Assembly: GCA_021904315.1 (NCBI GenBank)
Contig: CM038911.1
Coordinates: forward strand, 16,961,390-17,025,389
Length of the DNA: 64,000 nucleotides
Direction of reading: 5' to 3'
Source of the DNA: Sphagnum magellanicum
Taxonomy: Eukaryota; Streptophyta; Sphagnopsida; Sphagnales; Sphagnaceae
Numbering within the stretch: the first letter of the stretch is position 1; every line of letters starts with the position of its first letter. The position numbers were made by a program, and so were the translations under genes. Shown here in pieces: positions 5,200 through 16,530 of the stretch. The notes beneath the pieces were generated by a model that was given only the letters and a program-made list of their open reading frames with translations, was not told the origin of the DNA and searched no databases.

Positions 5200-6600
5200 T
5201 TATGAATCGTTCAACATTAGTTAAATCCTTAAAATTGAAGGGCCCCCAAATTGTTTAATTGTTAAAGTTTGGTAGTTTTTTCTAACTTGTGATTTAATTA
5301 AGGCCATCAATTCCACATTGGTATTTATGGATTATTGTATTTGACCATTATTTTTAATAAAAAGTATTCATAAAGTTAGCCAAATTAACGACCAACGTGT
5401 AAGTTTCATTAAAAGTGATGATTACTCCAAGAATTTGAAATATGAGTTCACCAAAGGGGGAAAATGCATTTTGACTTAAGATCGTAGGAATTTAGGCATG
5501 CATTTTGTCAAAAAATGAATTTTTTCTCATTCTTGTGCCATGTAAGTGAACTTTGTTGTTTTTTTTAGCACTTGGGAAAATAGTGAAAGGTGATAGGTTT
5601 TTCTAGGTTTTTGCAAACAAAAGACGAGGCAAGGCGTTTGTTGGTGAAACATAATGAACTTCTTGTTTTTGTAGGTGAAGGAGTTCAAAGTTGGAAGCTT
5701 ATAACAAACTATGTGATTTTTAACATTTGGGAGATAGATAGGCAACTTGGAAGGCAAAGGGTGTAGGTAAAGGAACTAGGAATGTGGAGCTTGCAATAAC
5801 CTCCAAAATTGAAGTGATGAACATATGTCATAATCAAAAGTTATAAAGTCATCAAAAGTTGCAAAAGAGTTAAAGTCAAATCTTATTTTTGAAATTAGTG
5901 AACTAGTTCAAATTTGAAGTGCGATTGTTTTGCATAAGAGAAAATAACATTCCTTTTTGGGGATACTTGTAATTAAAGTGTGACGTTGTGAGTTTGATAC
6001 ATATGTCACTCTAAAAGAAAGAAAAATAGATATAAGAAGCTTGTTAATTGTTTCAAAGATCACAATAGATTTCTTTTGTTTGGTTTCCATGGCTTGAGGT
6101 TGTTTCTTTAATTTGTTTTCTATATTGTAGTTATGATGATGGAATGATCTTAACATGTTTTGAGTGCTTATACAAGGATGTTGAAGATAACTATTTAGTT
6201 TTTAATACTTCAAAACAATGCAAAAGACTTGAAAAATCATTAGGAAAGTTGTAGGTTGCTTGATGAACCATGTTGAAGTTGGAAACTTGACATGCTTTGT
6301 TAGTACACTTTGAAATCACTTGTTTTGCAGTTGCATTTGCAATATCATCATATTCAAGGTGTGGTCAAGTTTCTTTCATTTGTTTTAAATAGATAGAGCT
6401 TGTTTGTTGTTGCTAAGTTAATATTCATTCAAGTATTGCATTTTACCTTGTTATTATCACTTGTAAATTTTCATTTCTTATTTTGAATTAAGTAGCCTTT
6501 ATTATATAATCATTTTCATAGTTTTTTTTTCTAGAAGAAAAGGAAAGTTCTCATACATCAATTTAAATCAAGTGTCGAAAACAATTTTAAATATAACATT
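5200..6600. other. Non-coding intergenic stretch
   Basis: AT-rich sequence with only short unrecognised open frames (for example 5527-5757 and 5908-6156, minus strand). I see no conserved protein motif, RNA gene or clear repeat. Confidence 0.5.
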
Positions 6601-6606
6601 TTGAAG

Positions 6607-7100
6607 CCATTTTTCAATGGAAGTAGTTTCTTGAATGAAAGCAGTTTTTCAATGGAAGTAGTTTTTTGAATGAAAGCAGTTTTTCAATGGAAGTAGTTTT
6701 TTGAATGAAAACAGTTTTACAATGGAAGTAGTTTTTTGAATGAAAGTAGTTTTTCAATGGAAGTAGTTTTTTGAATGAAAGCAATTTTTCAATGGAAGTA
6801 GTTTTTTCAATGAAAGCAGTTTTTCAATGGAAGTAGTTTTTTCAATGAAAGCAGTTTTTCAATGGAAGTAGTTTTTCCAATGAAAGCAGTTTTTCAATGG
6901 AAGTAGTTTTTTCAATGAAAGCAAATTTTCAATGGAAGCAATTTTTTCAATGAAAGTAAATTTTTAATGGAAATAGTTTTTTCAATGAAAGCAATTTTTC
7001 AGTGTAAATAAAAATTTTCAATGAAAATAACTTTTTAATGGAAGTAGTTTTTTCAATGAAGCAATTTTTCAATGAAAGTAATTTTTCAATGCAAATAATG
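6607..7100. repeat. 35-bp tandem array built from two related half-units
   Basis: The unit is a 17-bp half tttttcaatggaagtag followed by an 18-bp half such as ttttttgaatgaaagcag. About 13-14 units are recognisable. Copies near 6640-6900 are almost identical, and similarity fades toward 7100. The two halves resemble each other, so the 35-bp unit is probably itself a dimer. Confidence 0.88.
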
Positions 7101-7345
7101 TTTTCTAATGAAAGCAGTTTTTCAGTGCAAATAATCTTTCAATGCAAATAATTTTCCAATATAATTTCTTTTCCAAAACAAGTAATTTTTCAATATAAGT
7201 AATTTTTAATGAAAATAAATTTTTAGTGCAAGAATTTTTTTAATGCAAGCTTTAATTTTTTAATGTTAACAATTTTTCAATTTGAGAAATTTTTTCATTT
7301 AAGCAATTTTCAATATAATTTTTTTTAATGCACGGAATTTTCCAA
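7100..7345. repeat. Degenerate tail of the 35-bp array
   Basis: Words such as aatttttcaatgcaaataat and ttttaatgcaagc continue the half-unit pattern with loss of the strict period, giving an older, eroded edge of the array at 6607-7100. Confidence 0.6.
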
Positions 7346-8086
7346 AAACAAAAGTAAATAATTTTGAATGAGTCATTGATTTTATCTTTTTTGAATGTGT
7401 TTATGTGGGAACCATGTTTTTCTTAATATAGATATCCATTAAATTGAAGTTCATAATAATGGAAACATCTTTATTAAATTTTTTTGATTGATCATTTGAA
7501 CATGTATTGCATTCATATGGTTTTCATTTAATTTCAACATACAAATATGAAATAGGCAATTATCTTTTTGATTCTATATATCTTATTTATTGAATAATCA
7601 TTTATTATCTTTTGAATTGAAGCAAAATAACATGGCACATTTATTTAGAAGAAATTAAAGAACCAATTCCCACAGAACAACTTTTTACAAAACATGACGT
7701 TCAATAAAATATAATAAAATGTTAATAAAAAATACTCATAATTCAATATACATTGAAATTTATAATAAAAAATCCAAGATGTTCCCATAATTCCATGTTT
7801 TTAGTTGTGAAAGGTTATGTTTTTAAAAATAACCTAAATGTTTTTCAAATGAATTGTCAAAACAACAATCTATATACTTTCAAATTCAAATAAAACCTAG
7901 TTCAACATCATACATATGTATAATTTATTTACATAATATTAATGAAAATAAACCACATTTATATCAAATACCAAAAAAAATTTCTAGAAATAAAATCATT
8001 CCATTAATCCAAAAATTAACACAATTAAATTTTTAAAAAATTTCATCATGATTTGTTTATACTCAAATTTATAAACTCCAAAGGTA

Positions 8087-11000
8087 TGGGCATATAAGAT
8101 GCATGGTAATGTTATTAATGTCCCTGCAAATGTGGATCAAATTCAATCAATACTATCACATTTACTACATGATGGTGCAACTATAGGTGTGTTTTTTAAA
8201 TGACGTCTTGAATACAAATCATTTATATGTCAGGAAATGTTCGTCCAAATAAGGTGGTGGTTGTTTTACAAGATTTAATTGAAACACCATTATGCAAAAA
8301 AATTGAATGTTACCATTCATCATTACTGGACAAGTTTTTTTTCTTAGCATATGAATTCAGAATTTGAAATTCCTACTTATAATAATGCATCATCTGATAA
8401 TTTTGATTTTGACAATGAAGAAATACATTGTACACCAACATAATCAATGATACATAATTTTTTAGATGCTCCAAAAATAATGGATAATGAAAATATTATA
8501 TATTCTATTACCCCAAGTCATAATTTTCACCCTTTAGGTTTATTTAAATATAAACATTCAGAGAAACTAAATTTTCAAACATTGTTATATGGGCAACCTC
8601 AACAATTTTCTAAAAGCTTTTCATATCAACAAATAGCTCAATGGGAATTATTTCATAAATTTGGGGATTTTTCAACAAATATTTCAAACCTTTTTTTTAA
8701 AGCTGCTAAAGTTTCCATCCAAAAAATCATAGGTTTTGGTTGGGTGCGAATATGAAAAAGAAAACTATGTGGTAAAACTTTAAAAGCTTATTTAGTACGA
8801 GATAAATCAAATTTAAGTAATATTTAAAAATCATATTTAGGTTATTATGATTTGGAAAACTTGAATAATTCATTTGATTATTTTGAAAGGTTATGGAAAA
8901 CATTATTTACAATGATTCAACAACTCACTCTTCCAACATTCTTACCAAACCCATTACAAAATGCACAACAACACTAACACACACATACATGTGAGGAAAA
9001 AAATCATGTTTGTAAATTTCATTATTCATTGTTTCCTATGAGTGAAACAAAATATTTCAATTTTTAAAAGATTTAAAAGAAAATGATGATATATCATTTC
9101 TAAAATTCTAAATTCTTTAAACCTCAATGAAAGTACATATATATTAAGTTTGAGAAGTAAATTAACAAAGCCGCACATTTTCTTTAAAAAAACATTTAAA
9201 AACATAAAAATTAATGCATTTAGTATATGTGCTGTTCATTTATGGTTTGCAAATACAAATATTCAATTTATCTTGGACTCATATGTAGTTGCAACATATT
9301 ACACGTCACATATGAAAAAATAAAAATGAATAACATCAGAACTACATTTTATCAGAAAAATGCATCACACATAATATAAATGCAAATATAAGAATTCAAA
9401 AGTTAGCTAATGTTTTTGTTAATGCCCAACAAATGGTTGTTCAACTTGCTACTTACCTTGTGTTTTCTTTACCAGTATATCATTCATTTGGAACATTTCA
9501 ACTCATAAATACTTTTTTTTTTTGAATAATGGGCTTTTATATTAAAACCATAAGTTGCATTAAATGAATTAGAACCAAATTCAACTCATATAATGTGTTG
9601 ATTGATCATAGATAAGTATATTAATTATCCTAGTCAATATGAATTTAGTTTTTTTAATAACATTTGAAAAATAAGATTTCAAAACATCGCAAACCTAAAA
9701 TGATTAGGTTTATAAATTATAATAAATATAAATATATTGAAAATTGGTTGAGAAAACAAGTTTTATTGTATTCAGGTGAAAGCACATTAAGGTGGAATAC
9801 TTTCTAGCATATGTGGAGTCCATACTAATGTTAAAATAAAAGTCCATTTTACATTATAATATAATACATTATATTGCACAAGTCATATAACAAAGTTAAA
9901 TAATTTATTTTTTACTTTTAAACTTTGTCAATTGTAGATAATTGTATCAAAAAAATTACATTTAAAAAATGAGAAGTTGAATTATTAATTCGAATGAACA
10001 AAGGACTTTATAAAAAAATCCATATTTCATTGTATATTTCAATTTATGGTTTTCAAAATCTTTCAAAATTGTTTTTTTTTGTATCAATGGCATCACACTA
10101 CTTTTTATGTCAAAAAAATCATTCAATTAAACATTCAAAACTTATTCATGAAATTCATACAATGTGATCACATCACATGAAATATTATTATTTTGAGTCC
10201 TTTTCACATATTATTCTTTTATATTTTGTTCCATGGCCCATGATTGATAATCCAACAAGTTGTGACAAGATTATGTACTTTGCATTAATGTGCTTTCACC
10301 CATTCACCATTTTGAAATTCAGAAAATTTACAACTTGGAACTAATGTAACTTGACATGATGCATATTGTCAATAATTTGATGAAATTTCTAAGATTAAAT
10401 CTATTTTCAACTACCAAATGCCATATCCAAATACCAAAAAAATAGATGATTCAATAGATTCAAAATCAAAACCATTAAGTTCAACTAACATTTGGACTAA
10501 CGATATAAATAATGAAGTAAATGATCCACGTCGTACAATTCTTATAACAAACATAATCAATATTGAACACTATGATTTATAATTTGATTTTGTCATTTAA
10601 TCACGTAATGGATCAAACCAAAAATCACAATTTTTAGAACATGAAAATTTTACAAAATCATCATATTCCATGATGATGAAGGAACTTGCATATCATAGTT
10701 TACATAAACAATTAAATGAAGAAAAAATATTAATATTTGATGATGTTATGCATAGAAACAATTGTACCTTGATACACTGATATGTTTATTTTTTACAGGG
10801 GGTGCTAAAACCGATAAATTTTTTACATTAAAACTCATAATTCAAGGATTATTACAATTATACAATAGAAACATGTCTTCTAACTTAACAAAAAAAGGCT
10901 TTACTTATGGCATCAATAGGTAAAATTGCTTTCAATATTGACGGTTTAATAATACATTAAGCATTGAACATATTTGTTTAACAATCCTTATCTAGTTTAC

Positions 11001-12834
11001 CAAACTTATCATTAGATTCATTAAATGGGCTTACATGTCGATATGAACAATTACAACTTGTTGTCATAGATGAAATATCATTTGTTAGTGCTATAATGTT
11101 TAATGTTATAGATAATAGGTTAAGGTCCATAAAACACATTTAAACAATTTTTTTGGTGGTGTTGATGTTACCATGATAAGTGATTTCTATCAAACATCCC
11201 TTGTGAAAGATAGTTGGATCTTTCAAAATATCAAAGATAATGTTCATGTGTTAGCAACAAATTTTTGGCAAACATATGTCCAATGTTATGAACTAAATAA
11301 AGTTATGTAGTAGTTTGATTTGGTTTTTATACAAACTTTGAACAAATTTTATATTGTAATAAAAAACACAAAAAAATTCAATTTGTAATCAATAACCACC
11401 TAACAATTTTGTTATTCCACATTTATTTTATATAAATAAACTTGTGCAAAAACAAAATGAAAATGTGTCACAACACATTAGGTCTCACATTTATTTTCAA
11501 AGCAATGGACATTAACCATTAATCATGTCCACCATCTTACAAACTTTCAAATGATCCAAGTAAAACTATGAGTTTGCATTTTATAATTCATATAAAAAAA
11601 GATATGTTGGTTGAATTATGTGCTAGTAATTATGCAACATTTGATGGTCTTATGAATGGAGCTAATGACATTTTTAAAACATCAACATATTGTGAAAAAA
11701 CCATTATGTGGATAATGTTTCAAAATTCTAAAATTGGAACATTAACAAGAAAAAAATATAGTCATTTATGACAATAACATTGAATCAAAATGGACACCAA
11801 TTGAACCTATCATCAAAGATATAAAAGTTGATAAATCCCAATCATTTATTATAACAAAGATTCAATTTCTAATTCAACTTGCAACAACAATAACCATTCA
11901 TCGTTTTCAAGGATTATCATTAGATGAATTGGTTTTTAATCCCACTAATGTTTAAAAAATGGGTTTAACATTTACTACATTATCCCACATTTGAACAAAA
12001 GAAAAACTATTTTTGTTAGCTCCTCTTCAACATGAAATTTTTTATGTGGATCCAAAAGTACATATAGAAATGAATAGATTGAAAACAATTACAACTTAGA
12101 TACCATTAATTTTTCAATTTAAAAAATTACATAATTTTCATGTAATTATACAAGCCTTGAATACAACTTCTTTATGCCAACATTACAAAGACATCAATCA
12201 TGATCATAAACTTCAAATGTCTCATATCTTATGTTTTACAAAAACAAGAATACACCATGCATCAACAAATGTGCACAAATTTATAAATTCATTGAAGTAT
12301 TCATATATTTCAATTCATGACGGTCATGGGTTAATGACGATGTATGACATACACATGTAGTTAGATTCTTTTAATACAATAATTAATGATGGCTCAAAAT
12401 ATATAGCAACAACTTTTAATATTAATACATGAAAACAATACATATTGTATGTGTGTATAAAGCTAAATCATGTTCAATTTCTATATTCCTAAATAATCTT
12501 CAAATTAAAATTCAATAATATCCCAAACATTGTCCAATCATCATTATGGAAAATTTTAATATTGACATTCTAAAAGACAATAACCAAACAAAAAAAACAA
12601 GAACTATTATATTTCATGGATAAATTCCAATTAAAATCATAATTTAGTGAAAACACCACAAAAACTAGATTTTAATTAGACCATATATGGATAAATGTCC
12701 TTGGAAATGAGTGCAAATTTGGTGGAACAAAAGCATATTGGTCAAATTTTCACACACCGATTTATATTGCATTCAAATTACCAAACACACTTCCAATGTA
12801 TAACAAAAAACCATTAATGTCTCCATTTATATAA
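8087..12834 (+). mobile_element. Helitron relic with DUF6570-like, Rep/helicase and endonuclease-like segments
   Basis: The plus strand carries, in order and in shifting frames, the conserved pieces of a long Helitron protein. There is a DUF6570-like start (NVPANVDQIQSIL, LEYKSF; 8087-8340). A Helitron-N-like block follows (FHPLGLFKYKHSEKLNFQTL, YQQIAQWELFHKFGDF, FFKAAKVSIQKI; 8447-8755), then LGYYDLENLNNSFDYFERLW near 8840. Next come FNICAVHLW and FVNAQQM (9210-9510). PIF1-like helicase pieces include GLLQLYNRNMSS and VVIDEISFV (10780-11290), then a C-terminal helicase stretch (MLVELCASNYATFDGLMNGA, 11568-11771; FQGLSLDEL, near 11910). An endonuclease/exonuclease-phosphatase-like tail follows (SHILCFTKTRIHHAS, 12157-12360; ENFNIDILKDNNQ, near 12550), ending at a TAA at 12832. 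Many stops and frame changes make it non-functional. Element ends (5' TC, 3' hairpin with CTRR) were not located. Confidence 0.8.
8447..8755 (+). pseudogene. Longest surviving Helitron ORF piece (102 codons)
   Basis: This open piece holds the segment that ends in GFGWVRI just before the Helitron-N-like domain. The following bases continue the same protein after a stop (LCGKTLKAYLVRDKSN, then the LGYYDLENLN block). It is a fragment of the relic at 8087-12834 and not an independent gene. Confidence 0.75.
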
Positions 12835-13480
12835 AGTGTAGCGTTTGTGAAAATATGCATATAAATGTTGCATTTTTCACCTAATTAATTACTCCCAAAA
12901 TGTTAGTAGCTTGTGGCTTGAATTTGTATTTTTACATTTTTTTCATGGACCATGTGTAAAAAAAATCATAAATATCATAACAAGACAAAAAAGAAATTGG
13001 ATGATTTTTTTATCCACATGTACACCCATCAAACACTATAACAAAACACCTTTTATGAAAAACCTAAACCCAAAATATGACCCAAAAAAATATAAAAATT
13101 GCCAAACTTCTCAAACTTCAAAATGAAAATGTGATTAAAAATTTAAATCTTTCCATGTAAATTATATACATTCAATATTGATGTTTGTTTCAAACATTGA
13201 AATACCCCATGCACATTGCTAAAAATTGTTTACATTATCCAAGTTTGAAAAACTTGAATTTTCTTAAAGAATATAATTATTTACAAACTTTATATTCATG
13301 TGTATGATTTTAAAAAAGACAATGAAACTACGGTTTCAATTTCTAAATATCCACAATGAATTTTAAGATTGTTTAAAAAACTTGATTTTTAAAATATAAA
13401 TGTGAAAAAAAATTCATGCTCTTTCATAAAGCCAACAAACTTTCATCCAATATAACTTGAGTTCATAGTAAAATATTAAA
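12835..13480. other. AT-rich flank downstream of the Helitron
   Basis: Homopolymer-rich AT DNA with one small open frame (12911-13126) that resembles nothing I know. It may still belong to the Helitron's 3' non-coding end. No terminal hairpin was recognised. Confidence 0.35.
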
Positions 13481-13486
13481 TGTAAT

Positions 13487-14452
13487 ACCGGACAGAGCCT
13501 CTCATTGCAGAGCCGCTTGTTTTAGTTCTTGTTGAATTTCTGTCTAAGCATAGAACCTGGTTTCTATTGTAAGTGTATGTGGTTTAGGGCTCCAGCACTC
13601 CAGCAACAAAATTCTGGGTTTTGCAAATGGCTTTCAAATATGTTCTTCTCTAGCTGTTTTATGTAGCCACTTCTTTTTGCCATGACCTATTGTGAGAAAA
13701 ATCTTTAAGGTGCAACTTAAGGTGCAACTCCTAAATTGTTAAGGCTTTACAATATTTTTAGCTCCATCATTGTAAAGACATGTGCTTTGGTGGCTTGGCA
13801 AAATTCCTTAAGAAAAAAATTTACCACTAAAAACCATTTGGAAGAAGACGATAATGCTAAACTTTTCATAAGTGATGAAACCCTACCAAACTTCAAAAAG
13901 GGGAAAATCACCCACCCCAAAGGGAAAGGGAAGGACCAACAAGGACCAACAACAAGAGAGGACCAAAGGCTGACCCAGAGAAAGCTCCCAAAAGCACAAA
14001 CCCACAACCTGGGGGCCAAGTTGAATTAACTCCACAAAGGACACTCCAGAGCTAAATTTGTGTACACAAACTCAAATATTTTCACAGTAGCCCAAAATGC
14101 AAGAACATGATGAAGAAGAAAACAGACAAATCCAGGAGTTAGAAATTTCATACAAGTTCCCACCCCCAAAAATTAAAGCAGGAGTTGGACAGATTGTTTG
14201 GTACAACCTTGTTTTTTTTGTACAGATTTGGATCTCTAGATAGTCCTCATTTGGTGTATACACATTTCTCGAAGAAATTGAAAGAAAGAATCTCAAACAC
14301 TGGAAAGGTACTTGCTCACCTTGATGGGATCCTGGAAGACGACAACAACAACAACCAATTTAAGAATTTGTAGACAGTGAAGTGGTTTGCTGTAGGTTTT
14401 TCACAGAATGGACATAACCCCATTATGTATATGACGCAAGAAGGAGAAGTGT
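13487..14452 (-). other. Probable 3' UTR and downstream region of the F-box gene
   Basis: Sequence following the stop codon of the minus-strand F-box gene. It is less AT-rich than the surrounding DNA, without long homopolymers in the half nearest the gene. Small ORFs on both strands look accidental. The polyadenylation site could not be fixed. Confidence 0.35.
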
Positions 14453-15985
14453 CTAGTAATACTTGAGGTAGAAGAAAAAGAAATTTAGGCAGATGAAGAC
14501 ACAGATTGCACTGATGGCCATAGCTGTATCAAGCTGAGCTTCAGCCCGGATCTTGCTCTCCTTCAACTGGCTTTTTATCCTCAAGCATGCTTGATAGGAC
14601 TCGACAAGCTTGCAGTGATCTCTGGTTTTTAAATCACGAGTTATTGAGCCTAGTCTGGAAAGTGTTATGAGACTGTTCCTCCCATTCAGAATTGCACCTT
14701 CCATATTCTTCAGTTGCATACTGAGCTCTGTCATCCAGAGCGTCGTCTTTAAGAAGATGGGATCTTCTGGCACTGAGCAAGATTCGGGAATGTTCCGTGT
14801 TGCTGTGCGAAGTTTACATTTGAGTATAATGTTGCACTGAATCGAGTGGGAACTTGCGGTTTTACTGTTACCGCTAGACTTGCTGGGTCCTGCTGATCCG
14901 TTACTAGAATACGAAGTTGTAGCTGGGAGAATAGATCCGAATTGAAGAACAAAGTCTTCCTCATATGGCCACCCACATGTTCCGCCTTCCAGAGGTTTCC
15001 AGCTCGCGAGATTGATCATCTGTTTCGTGCTCTTCCTCATGAGAATCCAACTCATCCTCATATTTTCCTGCAGAGTTTTCCAAGCTCTCTTCAAGGCAGC
15101 AGCGTCGTTGGTGAATCTTTCTTCCTTCACCTGGTGCACGGTGGTGCATCTGACAGGAAAGTAGTCCGCTCTACTCATCATATTCGTGGCTACGACAGAA
15201 TTCTGAAACCCCTCGTCGTCTTCTTCCAGCGAGAACCCATAATAATCTCTTTCTGAATCTCGATGATCCCTCAGCACGTCGAAACTGAAAGGACAAACCG
15301 AGAACCAATCCGCTACGAAGTCTCCTGTTTCGGGAATACCTTCGATTGTTCTGGAGAGAACCGAGTCTCCATTGTACACCACGTCAATAATGGAAATGAA
15401 ATCGGAAGCAGCGACTTCTTCACTGGAGCCATCATTATCAAGTTGTAAACCTCCGCAGCTGTCCCACCCCGTACTATCATGAGAATACTCCGCCTTGCAG
15501 GACCATGTCCTCATGGTCTTCTCGTCCTTGGATGTTTCAGCTCCCTTGGTGAGAATGAACGGATAGCAAGCTGCATACAATTTCCTGAATCCACCCTGCA
15601 GTAGAACACCATTAATTGGCTGAAGGTACACGAGTTCTAATACTTCAAGCAGAAATTGTGATCCTGGACTACACTGTAACCCTGAATTTGTTTCGAAATT
15701 CCTGAGTTCAGTACTACTACTACTCACCATCGACGACACGATCGATTTCACATGCGGTTCCTTAGTAGACGGCCAGCGAGCAGTACACAGCTTCTCCCAC
15801 AAGCCTTCATCCGCGCAAAGAGTGCGGAACTCGGGGCTAACGCAGCTTGCTTTGGCCAGCGTCAGTGCATCAACACGACTCAATACCTCATACACCAACT
15901 CGGCGCTCATGAGCTGCAGTAGTGCAGTACCACCGCCATACTCGGAAGCTTCAATTCCCTCTTCTCTCTCAACAAACTGTTCCAT
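14453..15985 (-). CDS. F-box protein with C-terminal membrane anchor, CFB-like
   Basis: A single uninterrupted reading frame of 510 codons, from ATG at 15985-15983 to TAG at 14455-14453. Residues about 24-70 form an F-box (LMSAELVYEVLSRVDALTLA, then SCVSPEFRTLCADEGLWEKL), the part that binds SKP1 in SCF ubiquitin ligases. A middle domain with GGFRKLYAACYPFIL (after residue 130) resembles the Arabidopsis At3g44326 (CFB)/At2g27310/At2g36090 group. The C-terminal 25 or so residues hold a hydrophobic stretch (about 488-507, AMAISAICVFICLNFFFFYL) followed by KYY, fitting a tail anchor; CFB is known to have one. No leucine-rich, kelch or other substrate-binding repeats are visible. No intron is needed. 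Codon composition is clearly richer in G+C than the flanks. The F-box call is firm; membership of the CFB group is likely but from memory; the substrate is unknown. Confidence 0.9.
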   Translation of the reverse strand: MEQFVEREEGIEASEYGGGTALLQLMSAELVYEVLSRVDALTLAKASCVSPEFRTLCADEGLWEKLCTARWPSTKEPHVKSIVSSMVSSSSTELRNFETNSGLQCSPGSQFLLEVLELVYLQPINGVLLQGGFRKLYAACYPFILTKGAETSKDEKTMRTWSCKAEYSHDSTGWDSCGGLQLDNDGSSEEVAASDFISIIDVVYNGDSVLSRTIEGIPETGDFVADWFSVCPFSFDVLRDHRDSERDYYGFSLEEDDEGFQNSVVATNMMSRADYFPVRCTTVHQVKEERFTNDAAALKRAWKTLQENMRMSWILMRKSTKQMINLASWKPLEGGTCGWPYEEDFVLQFGSILPATTSYSSNGSAGPSKSSGNSKTASSHSIQCNIILKCKLRTATRNIPESCSVPEDPIFLKTTLWMTELSMQLKNMEGAILNGRNSLITLSRLGSITRDLKTRDHCKLVESYQACLRIKSQLKESKIRAEAQLDTAMAISAICVFICLNFFFFYLKYY

Positions 15986-16530
15986 GGGAACCCGATTCTG
16001 GTCGACGACGTCCGGAGCTTCGCAACGAAATCACTCAATTTTCTCACAAGATTCTCTAACACACGGCGATCTAACAATATTAAAATGAATTGTTGGAGAA
16101 ATCAAAGGAACTTCAAAGCCCAAGTTCTGCTCCTCCTGCGTCGGACTCGATCCCGCCAGAAGAAATTATTCTTCAAACCCAATTGATTTTTCTTCTTCCT
16201 CTTCACACTTCTTCCAAATTGCTAGAGTCTTCTGGCAGCAGATTCAAGCCCATCGAATAATTCTCATAGAAAAATCCAATCTTTTTCGCAGCTTGCTTGC
16301 CACAAGCTGCTGTGGATGTACTTACTATAAAACCAAGTTCCAATTTTCTTTTCTTTTCTTTCCTTTCCTTTTTTGTTTTGCTTTGCAGCTACACTTTACT
16401 TGGTCTTGTTCCACTCAGAGTTCAATGCAAGACTCCGTACTTTCTCCCAAAAATTGACACCACAAAACACAAAAACAAGAACAAATTTAAAAAATTAAAA
16501 AAAATCTACAAGTCTCCCTTAGGGTTTATA
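15986..16530 (-). promoter_or_regulatory. 5' leader and promoter region of the F-box gene
   Basis: Upstream of the F-box start, the minus strand is rich in GA tracts (plus-strand CTTCTT/TTCCTTTCC between about 16180 and 16390), as in many plant leaders. On the minus strand a TTATAAACCC lies near 16524-16533 and could be a TATA element, which would give a leader of around 500 bases. This is an inference with no transcript support. Confidence 0.35.

Follow-up and report, generated by a model that had tools for sequence, protein, structure and literature searches.

A decayed transposable element in the moss Sphagnum magellanicum, found in a stretch of 64,000 nucleotides (hereafter the window; assembly GCA_021904315.1, contig CM038911.1, positions 16,961,390 to 17,025,389 of the forward strand), is almost certainly a broken copy of an autonomous Helentron, whose parent of ~12.65 kb carried a Rep-PIF1 helicase-apurinic-type endonuclease and, probably, an OTU-like protease. 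The family to which it belongs is old and high-copy. Its domains, its ends, a deletion junction shared between copies and its decay are all directly observed, in the window and in relatives from the same genome (438,994,042 bases searched, in 31 contigs). A sequence-only reading had placed a non-classical Helitron with a C-terminal endonuclease at 8087-12834, and the pieces it named do lie on the + strand in the order it gave, interrupted by stops and shifts of frame, as translations and genome matches attest; the element is classed as a Helentron, set apart from the canonical RepHel Helitrons of this genome. Those coordinates were too narrow, homology to other copies running from 6480 to ~13522 (window 6001-15000 compared by blastn with 14 loci, one of which, L026, gave no match), and they do not enclose a single block, as the Helentron parts inside them are interrupted by a 526-bp miniature inverted-repeat transposable element (MITE). 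The features are collected in Table 1.

The endonuclease domain is real. Window positions 11908-12831 share 49% amino acid identity, across nine internal stops, with residues 2-309 of an open frame at locus L023, in which the helicase end and the endonuclease lie in one reading frame, and an 86-residue block from the tail of the window copy has at least 149 further matches in the genome at E ≤ 0.001 (the best 150 of 417 candidates, some places giving two). PF14529 was matched by 5 of 29 endonuclease pieces from relatives (best E-value 1.2e-7), and the fold matches listed for a structure model of the L023 endonuclease are, by their titles, endonuclease/exonuclease/phosphatase (EEP) superfamily proteins or DNase I complexes, an assignment that rests on the titles of the listed entries and beside which other folds are also possible. 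Matches to twelve other Pfam families, each from a single member of the endonuclease set and at an E-value of 0.011 or worse, are taken as chance. No Pfam match was obtained in a first scan of four window pieces or with two window endonuclease pieces; searches of PDB sequences with the endonuclease gave chance-level matches only, and a PHROGs search returned helicase families only. For the helicase, PF05970 (PIF1) reached E-values of 0.0031 and 0.021 in window pieces, below the curated cut-off, and 1.1e-14, 9.6e-11 and 1.2e-8 in three relatives, above it. The domain names given to the window pieces are based on better-kept relatives. Both the PIF1-like helicase and the endonuclease tail of the sequence-only reading, for which the absence of a real endonuclease domain from intact copies would have been a refutation, are borne out in relatives, none of them fully intact.

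Upstream of the helicase, a 103-residue block (PLGLFKYKHSEKLNF) in the N-terminal part of Rep has at least 149 further matches at E ≤ 0.001 (the best 150 of 328 candidates, again with some places giving two). Top amino acid identities within the genome are 78% for this block and 85-86% for the tail block, and the matches to the two blocks place the finding far beyond chance. Among nine copies inspected, the Rep HUH motif reads HDH in five (L024, L026, L031, L035 and L039) and HNH in L037, and the HDH motif is not visible in L025, L033 and L034. The tyrosine-bearing DSYVVATYYTSHMKK is presumably Rep motif 3, and is given here as a candidate. The DUF6570-like start proposed for the frame, in which NVPANVDQIQSIL lies within 8075-8200 on the + strand, finds weak agreement with PF20209, the scores from both the window and a relative falling below the curated cut-off. 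An OTU-like protease is a probable part of the family, with a Cys codon (GNCLF type) at the OTU motif in 5 of 13 distinct copies.

Table 1. Features of the Helentron copy in the window (positions in the window)
Feature	Position	Strand	Basis or remark
Decayed 5'-truncated Helentron copy	6480..13522	+	blastn against other copies
35-bp tandem repeat array, 14.6 copies	6610..7122	+	matching arrays in other family copies
Decayed catalytic-Cys motif of an OTU-like protease (probable), window reads KYEIGNYLFDSI	7543..7590	+	copy comparison
Deletion junction, ~0.9-1.0 kb lost, the rest of the OTU-like protease	7643..7646	+	copy comparison
DUF6570-like start of the RepHel frame, NVINVPANVDQIQSIL	8075..8200	+	PF20209, E 0.049 in the window and 0.0012 in relative L025, both below curated cut-off
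Rep N-terminal part, PLGLFKYKHSEKLNF block	8444..8752	+	at least 149 further genome matches
Rep part, YYDLENLNNSFDYFE block, broken by deletion junction	8828..8974	+	translation, blastn
Deletion junction, ~0.3-0.38 kb lost, the part in which relatives carry the Rep HUH (HDH) motif	8936..8937	+	copy comparison
Candidate Rep motif 3 with tyrosines, DSYVVATYYTSHMKK	9276..9320	+	translation
MITE-like insertion of 526 bp, perfect 16-bp terminal inverted repeats	9775..10300	+	copy comparison
Remnants of the helicase region, spread over three frames; the PIF1 matches lie within 10982-11307	10376..11952	+	PF05970
Remnant of apurinic-type endonuclease (EEP fold) behind the helicase, ending PLMSPFI	12100..12831	+	L023 alignment, PF14529, fold match
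3' copy of asymmetric terminal inverted repeat, GTTTGTTGGCTTTAT on the - strand	13426..13440	-	82 bp from the 3' end
3' terminus GGACAGAGCC...CCGCTTGTT, weak palindrome	13490..13522	+	copy alignment

The window copy is homologous to a complete 12,649-bp copy (G000:C16:3041715-3054363), the first ~5.1 kb of which have no counterpart in the window. This 5' part of the family, as represented by L053, L055 and the upstream part of L042, gave no match within the window, so that the window copy is either 5'-truncated or has its 5' part beyond the window's reach; its start is abrupt, the match beginning at 6480-6481 in 8 of the 12 loci extended upstream (L041-L052). Relative to other copies it has also lost ~0.9-1.0 kb at 7643/7646 and ~0.3-0.38 kb at 8936/8937. 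Relatives in the same genome supply the lost parts, namely the Rep HDH motif, most of the OTU-like protease and the ~5.1 kb of 5' sequence. With these losses, which take away the HUH motif and the greater part of the OTU region along with the 5' sequence, and with a MITE inserted into it, the window copy cannot move itself.

The surviving 5' end of the family lies near position 316 of L053 (G000:C16:3041715), upstream of which L053 and L055 share nothing detectable. The 5' boundary falls at query positions 82-102 in all 39 other places, 34 of them at 86-89 (the best 40 of 347 candidates), a count that leaves out five partial repeat matches within one copy on C1. In one copy, at G000:C1:14371152-14371901, a 5'-end piece of the Helentron is tandemly repeated with 160-bp spacing. 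Candidate 5' ends at window position 6480, near position 466 of L039 and near position 1213 of L053, the last with an apparent ACAAG terminal repeat, were each overturned by family sequence farther upstream. At the other side, 31 of 39 places reach the last or next-to-last base of the query, and copies keeping that end finish in TTGTT or a close variant. The L053 5' terminus, GTTTGTTGGCTCTAT, matches the inverted window positions 13426-13440 at 14 of 15 bases, a value that was not reached once when the final 150 bp were dinucleotide-shuffled 2000 times, and the 3' repeat is kept at 13-15 of 15 bases in all seven other copies compared (chosen copies, best place per locus). The element ends TTTGTTGG...CTTGTT, and not in the 5' TC and 3' CTRR of canonical Helitron1.

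The L023 helicase-endonuclease query returned 129 matches (the best 128 of 1027 candidates, a few copies giving two), with identities down to 31% save for one marginal match at 29%. Among the 128 other matches, 23, the window included, extend from query residue 10 or before to residue 290 or beyond, in the same order and at 32-60% identity. Stops occur in 123 of the 129; six are stop-free, full length being reached only by the query itself. The window copy differs from ten other copies by 0.117-0.170 substitutions per site (transition/transversion ratio 1.8-2.6). By a Sphagnum clock based on the peaks of synonymous divergence (Ks) and duplication dates given in the genome paper (PMC9946827, used in part), the copy splits would be roughly 32-74 million years old, a crude estimate that is too high if methylated repeats mutate faster. 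Such wide diversity, together with the decay, speaks for long residence and against recent arrival. The observed/expected CpG ratio of the window copy is 0.27; the 14-34 kb flank within the window has 0.32, and L028, the locus of a canonical Helitron with an open frame, has 0.81. Since the flank is likewise low, the low CpG of the window copy is partly regional.

The family also includes a non-autonomous derivative with the same ends. In L044, L045 and L050 the alignment jumps from window position 7643-7645 to 12438-12439 at the same junction, which is spanned by 5 of 40 scored places, on C8 (this being L044), C14, C4, C1 and C6; judged by position, the C6 copy, ~5.9 kb in total, combines this junction with both the 5' and the 3' end. 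Movement in trans is the best explanation for finding one deletion junction at scattered sites, with segmental duplication as an alternative.

Several observations weigh against the identification of the element as a Helentron of this architecture. L055, the only other copy in which a 5' end was read, shows the 5' inverted repeat as an exact run of just eight bases. Candidate hairpins at the ends fold no better than shuffles, with a weak exception at the L055 5' end (z -1.9, 10 of 200 shuffles as good) in which the repeat is not used as expected, and the 3' repeat stands 82 bp inside the terminus, as against 38-60 bp in the mite families of PMC4067079. The L023 structure model has a mean pLDDT (predicted local distance difference test) of 55, with 68-85 over residues 91-180 and less than 50 from residue 243 on, and L023 itself has no Pfam match; the OTU assignment rests on PF02338 E-values of 0.038 and 0.074, below the Pfam cut-off. 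Finally, the search of the same genome for element ends and intact copies, as proposed in the sequence-only reading, defined the ends and found no intact copy among the 129 helicase-endonuclease matches.

Helentrons, with Rep, helicase and endonuclease, have been reported from invertebrates, fish and fungi, with a broad opisthokont spread, and a 2014 survey listed few plant matches, on short contigs for which contamination was not excludable (PMC4067079, in part), with which the suggestion of a poorly described plant lineage agrees. The window family shares with them the HUH Rep, the PIF1 helicase and the C-terminal apurinic-type endonuclease. Also in common are inverted repeats at both ends, tandem repeats inside the element and non-autonomous deletion derivatives, and probably the OTU-like protease. 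It differs in its plant (moss) host, in the distance of the 3' repeat from the end and in being known without an intact copy. The asymmetric repeat arrangement has been described for both Helitron2 and Helentrons (PMC3627910 and PMC4067079, both in part): in Helitron2, known from Chlamydomonas and others, the repeats measure 8-15 bp, compared with 15 bp here, and the 5' repeat is terminal and the 3' repeat subterminal, as in the window family. However, the Helitron2 3' repeat lies immediately upstream of the hairpin (PMC3627910), whereas that of the window family stands ~55 bp before the candidate palindrome, and Helitron2 proteins are without the endonuclease that the window family carries (PMC4067079). 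No endonuclease was found in the fungal Helitrons surveyed in PMC5148889, and the word 'helitron' does not occur in the main text of the Sphagnum genome paper (PMC9946827). Helitron-5_SMo is listed among Helitron2 elements (PMC3627910, in part). Among the open-licence PubMed Central papers listed, one set of which comprised 40 of 44 papers, no title on Helentrons in moss was found. HELIANO and later plant surveys may report plant Helentrons. The suffix SMo we take to denote Selaginella moellendorffii.

A canonical Helitron1 into which the endonuclease of a non-LTR (long terminal repeat) retrotransposon had been inserted by chance would share Rep and PIF1 helicase with the window family, and canonical Helitrons are indeed numerous in this genome (all of the best 150 of 576 candidates lie above the cut-off), some with long open frames not seen in the Helentron copies, such as L028, whose frame of 1508 residues carries PF14214, PIF1 and Pif1_2B. 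Canonical elements have no endonuclease and end in TC and CTRR, whereas here an endonuclease follows the helicase end in the 23 near-complete matches and the termini bear asymmetric inverted repeats, so that this explanation is extremely improbable; a canonical Helitron in the window is itself rejected, as the 1508-residue protein has no tblastn match there at E ≤ 1e-3. Contamination of the assembly by another organism, the concern raised in 2014 over short plant contigs (PMC4067079, in part), can scarcely be entertained when matches to the 86-residue block lie on 19 contigs, C1 to C19, and the window copy holds a member of the genome's own dispersed MITE family and lies 0.9 kb from an F-box frame. 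Dispersed, decayed, chromosome-anchored copies with defined ends remove the doubt over contamination for this plant lineage.

As published Helentrons are mostly animal and fungal, and rare and doubtful in plants (PMC4067079, in part), a recent horizontal transfer, with a fungus, an arthropod or a protist as donor, might be considered. It is very unlikely in view of the divergence between copies, amino acid identities down to 31%, the prevalence of stops and the low CpG, although the last is partly regional; no relative was confirmed in viral contigs and prokaryote genomes (pattern matches only), collections without eukaryotes and hence weak evidence. An older transfer, into an ancestor of the host lineage, after which the family decayed over a long vertical descent and radiated into subfamilies, is a possibility to be taken seriously, if not the one we would choose: it is compatible with the observed diversity and decay and with the patchy distribution in plants (PMC4067079, in part), but nothing points positively to a donor, and the data are accounted for just as well by an ancestral plant element that other lineages have lost. 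On balance we favour a history in which Helentrons with endonuclease and OTU protease are native and ancient in moss genomes (or were transferred in tens of millions of years ago), multiplied to at least 100 dispersed copies, gave rise to non-autonomous derivatives of their own and later became extinct, while the canonical Helitrons that shared the nucleus with them retained open frames.

By analogy with the known Helitron and Helentron pathway, the HUH/tyrosine domain of Rep would nick one strand at the element end and the PIF1 helicase would peel the nicked strand off during rolling-circle copying, the end of which would be marked by the terminal inverted repeats and the 3' hairpin. The endonuclease may assist in nicking the target or in processing an intermediate, the OTU-like protease would have a role of its own, and the deletion derivatives, having the same ends, would be moved in trans.

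The window copy adds a decayed and old member, from a plant, to the known Helentrons. Whether Helentrons are ancestral in green plants and mostly lost, or acquired, becomes a testable question, and within one genome a decayed Helentron lineage can be set against canonical Helitrons whose frames are still open.

The MITE in the window copy is absent from all seven other copies that match both flanks of its site. Its family occurs at no fewer than 39 other places in the genome (the best 40 of 253 candidates), mostly at 85-89% identity over positions 1-361; one place is 78% identical over the whole, and many copies have extra sequence between position 361 and 361-370. Past the 3' end of the Helentron by 0.9 kb, an open frame of 525 residues with an F-box domain (14456-16030, - strand; PF00646, E 1.6e-5) is likely a host gene, and Rfam gave no match in the window at the gathering score. 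In the 5' part of the Helentron family, a reading frame (MHVVITIES...FFHMDSIR...) recurs at L042 304-615, L049 2-394 and L052 7-450; it has no Pfam match near a cut-off, and is possibly a further gene of the family or a chance conservation. Long open frames in canonical Helitrons lie at L028 1829-6352, L029 5383-8385 and L030 1903-4704, and these elements are probably a rolling-circle lineage younger than the Helentrons of this genome.
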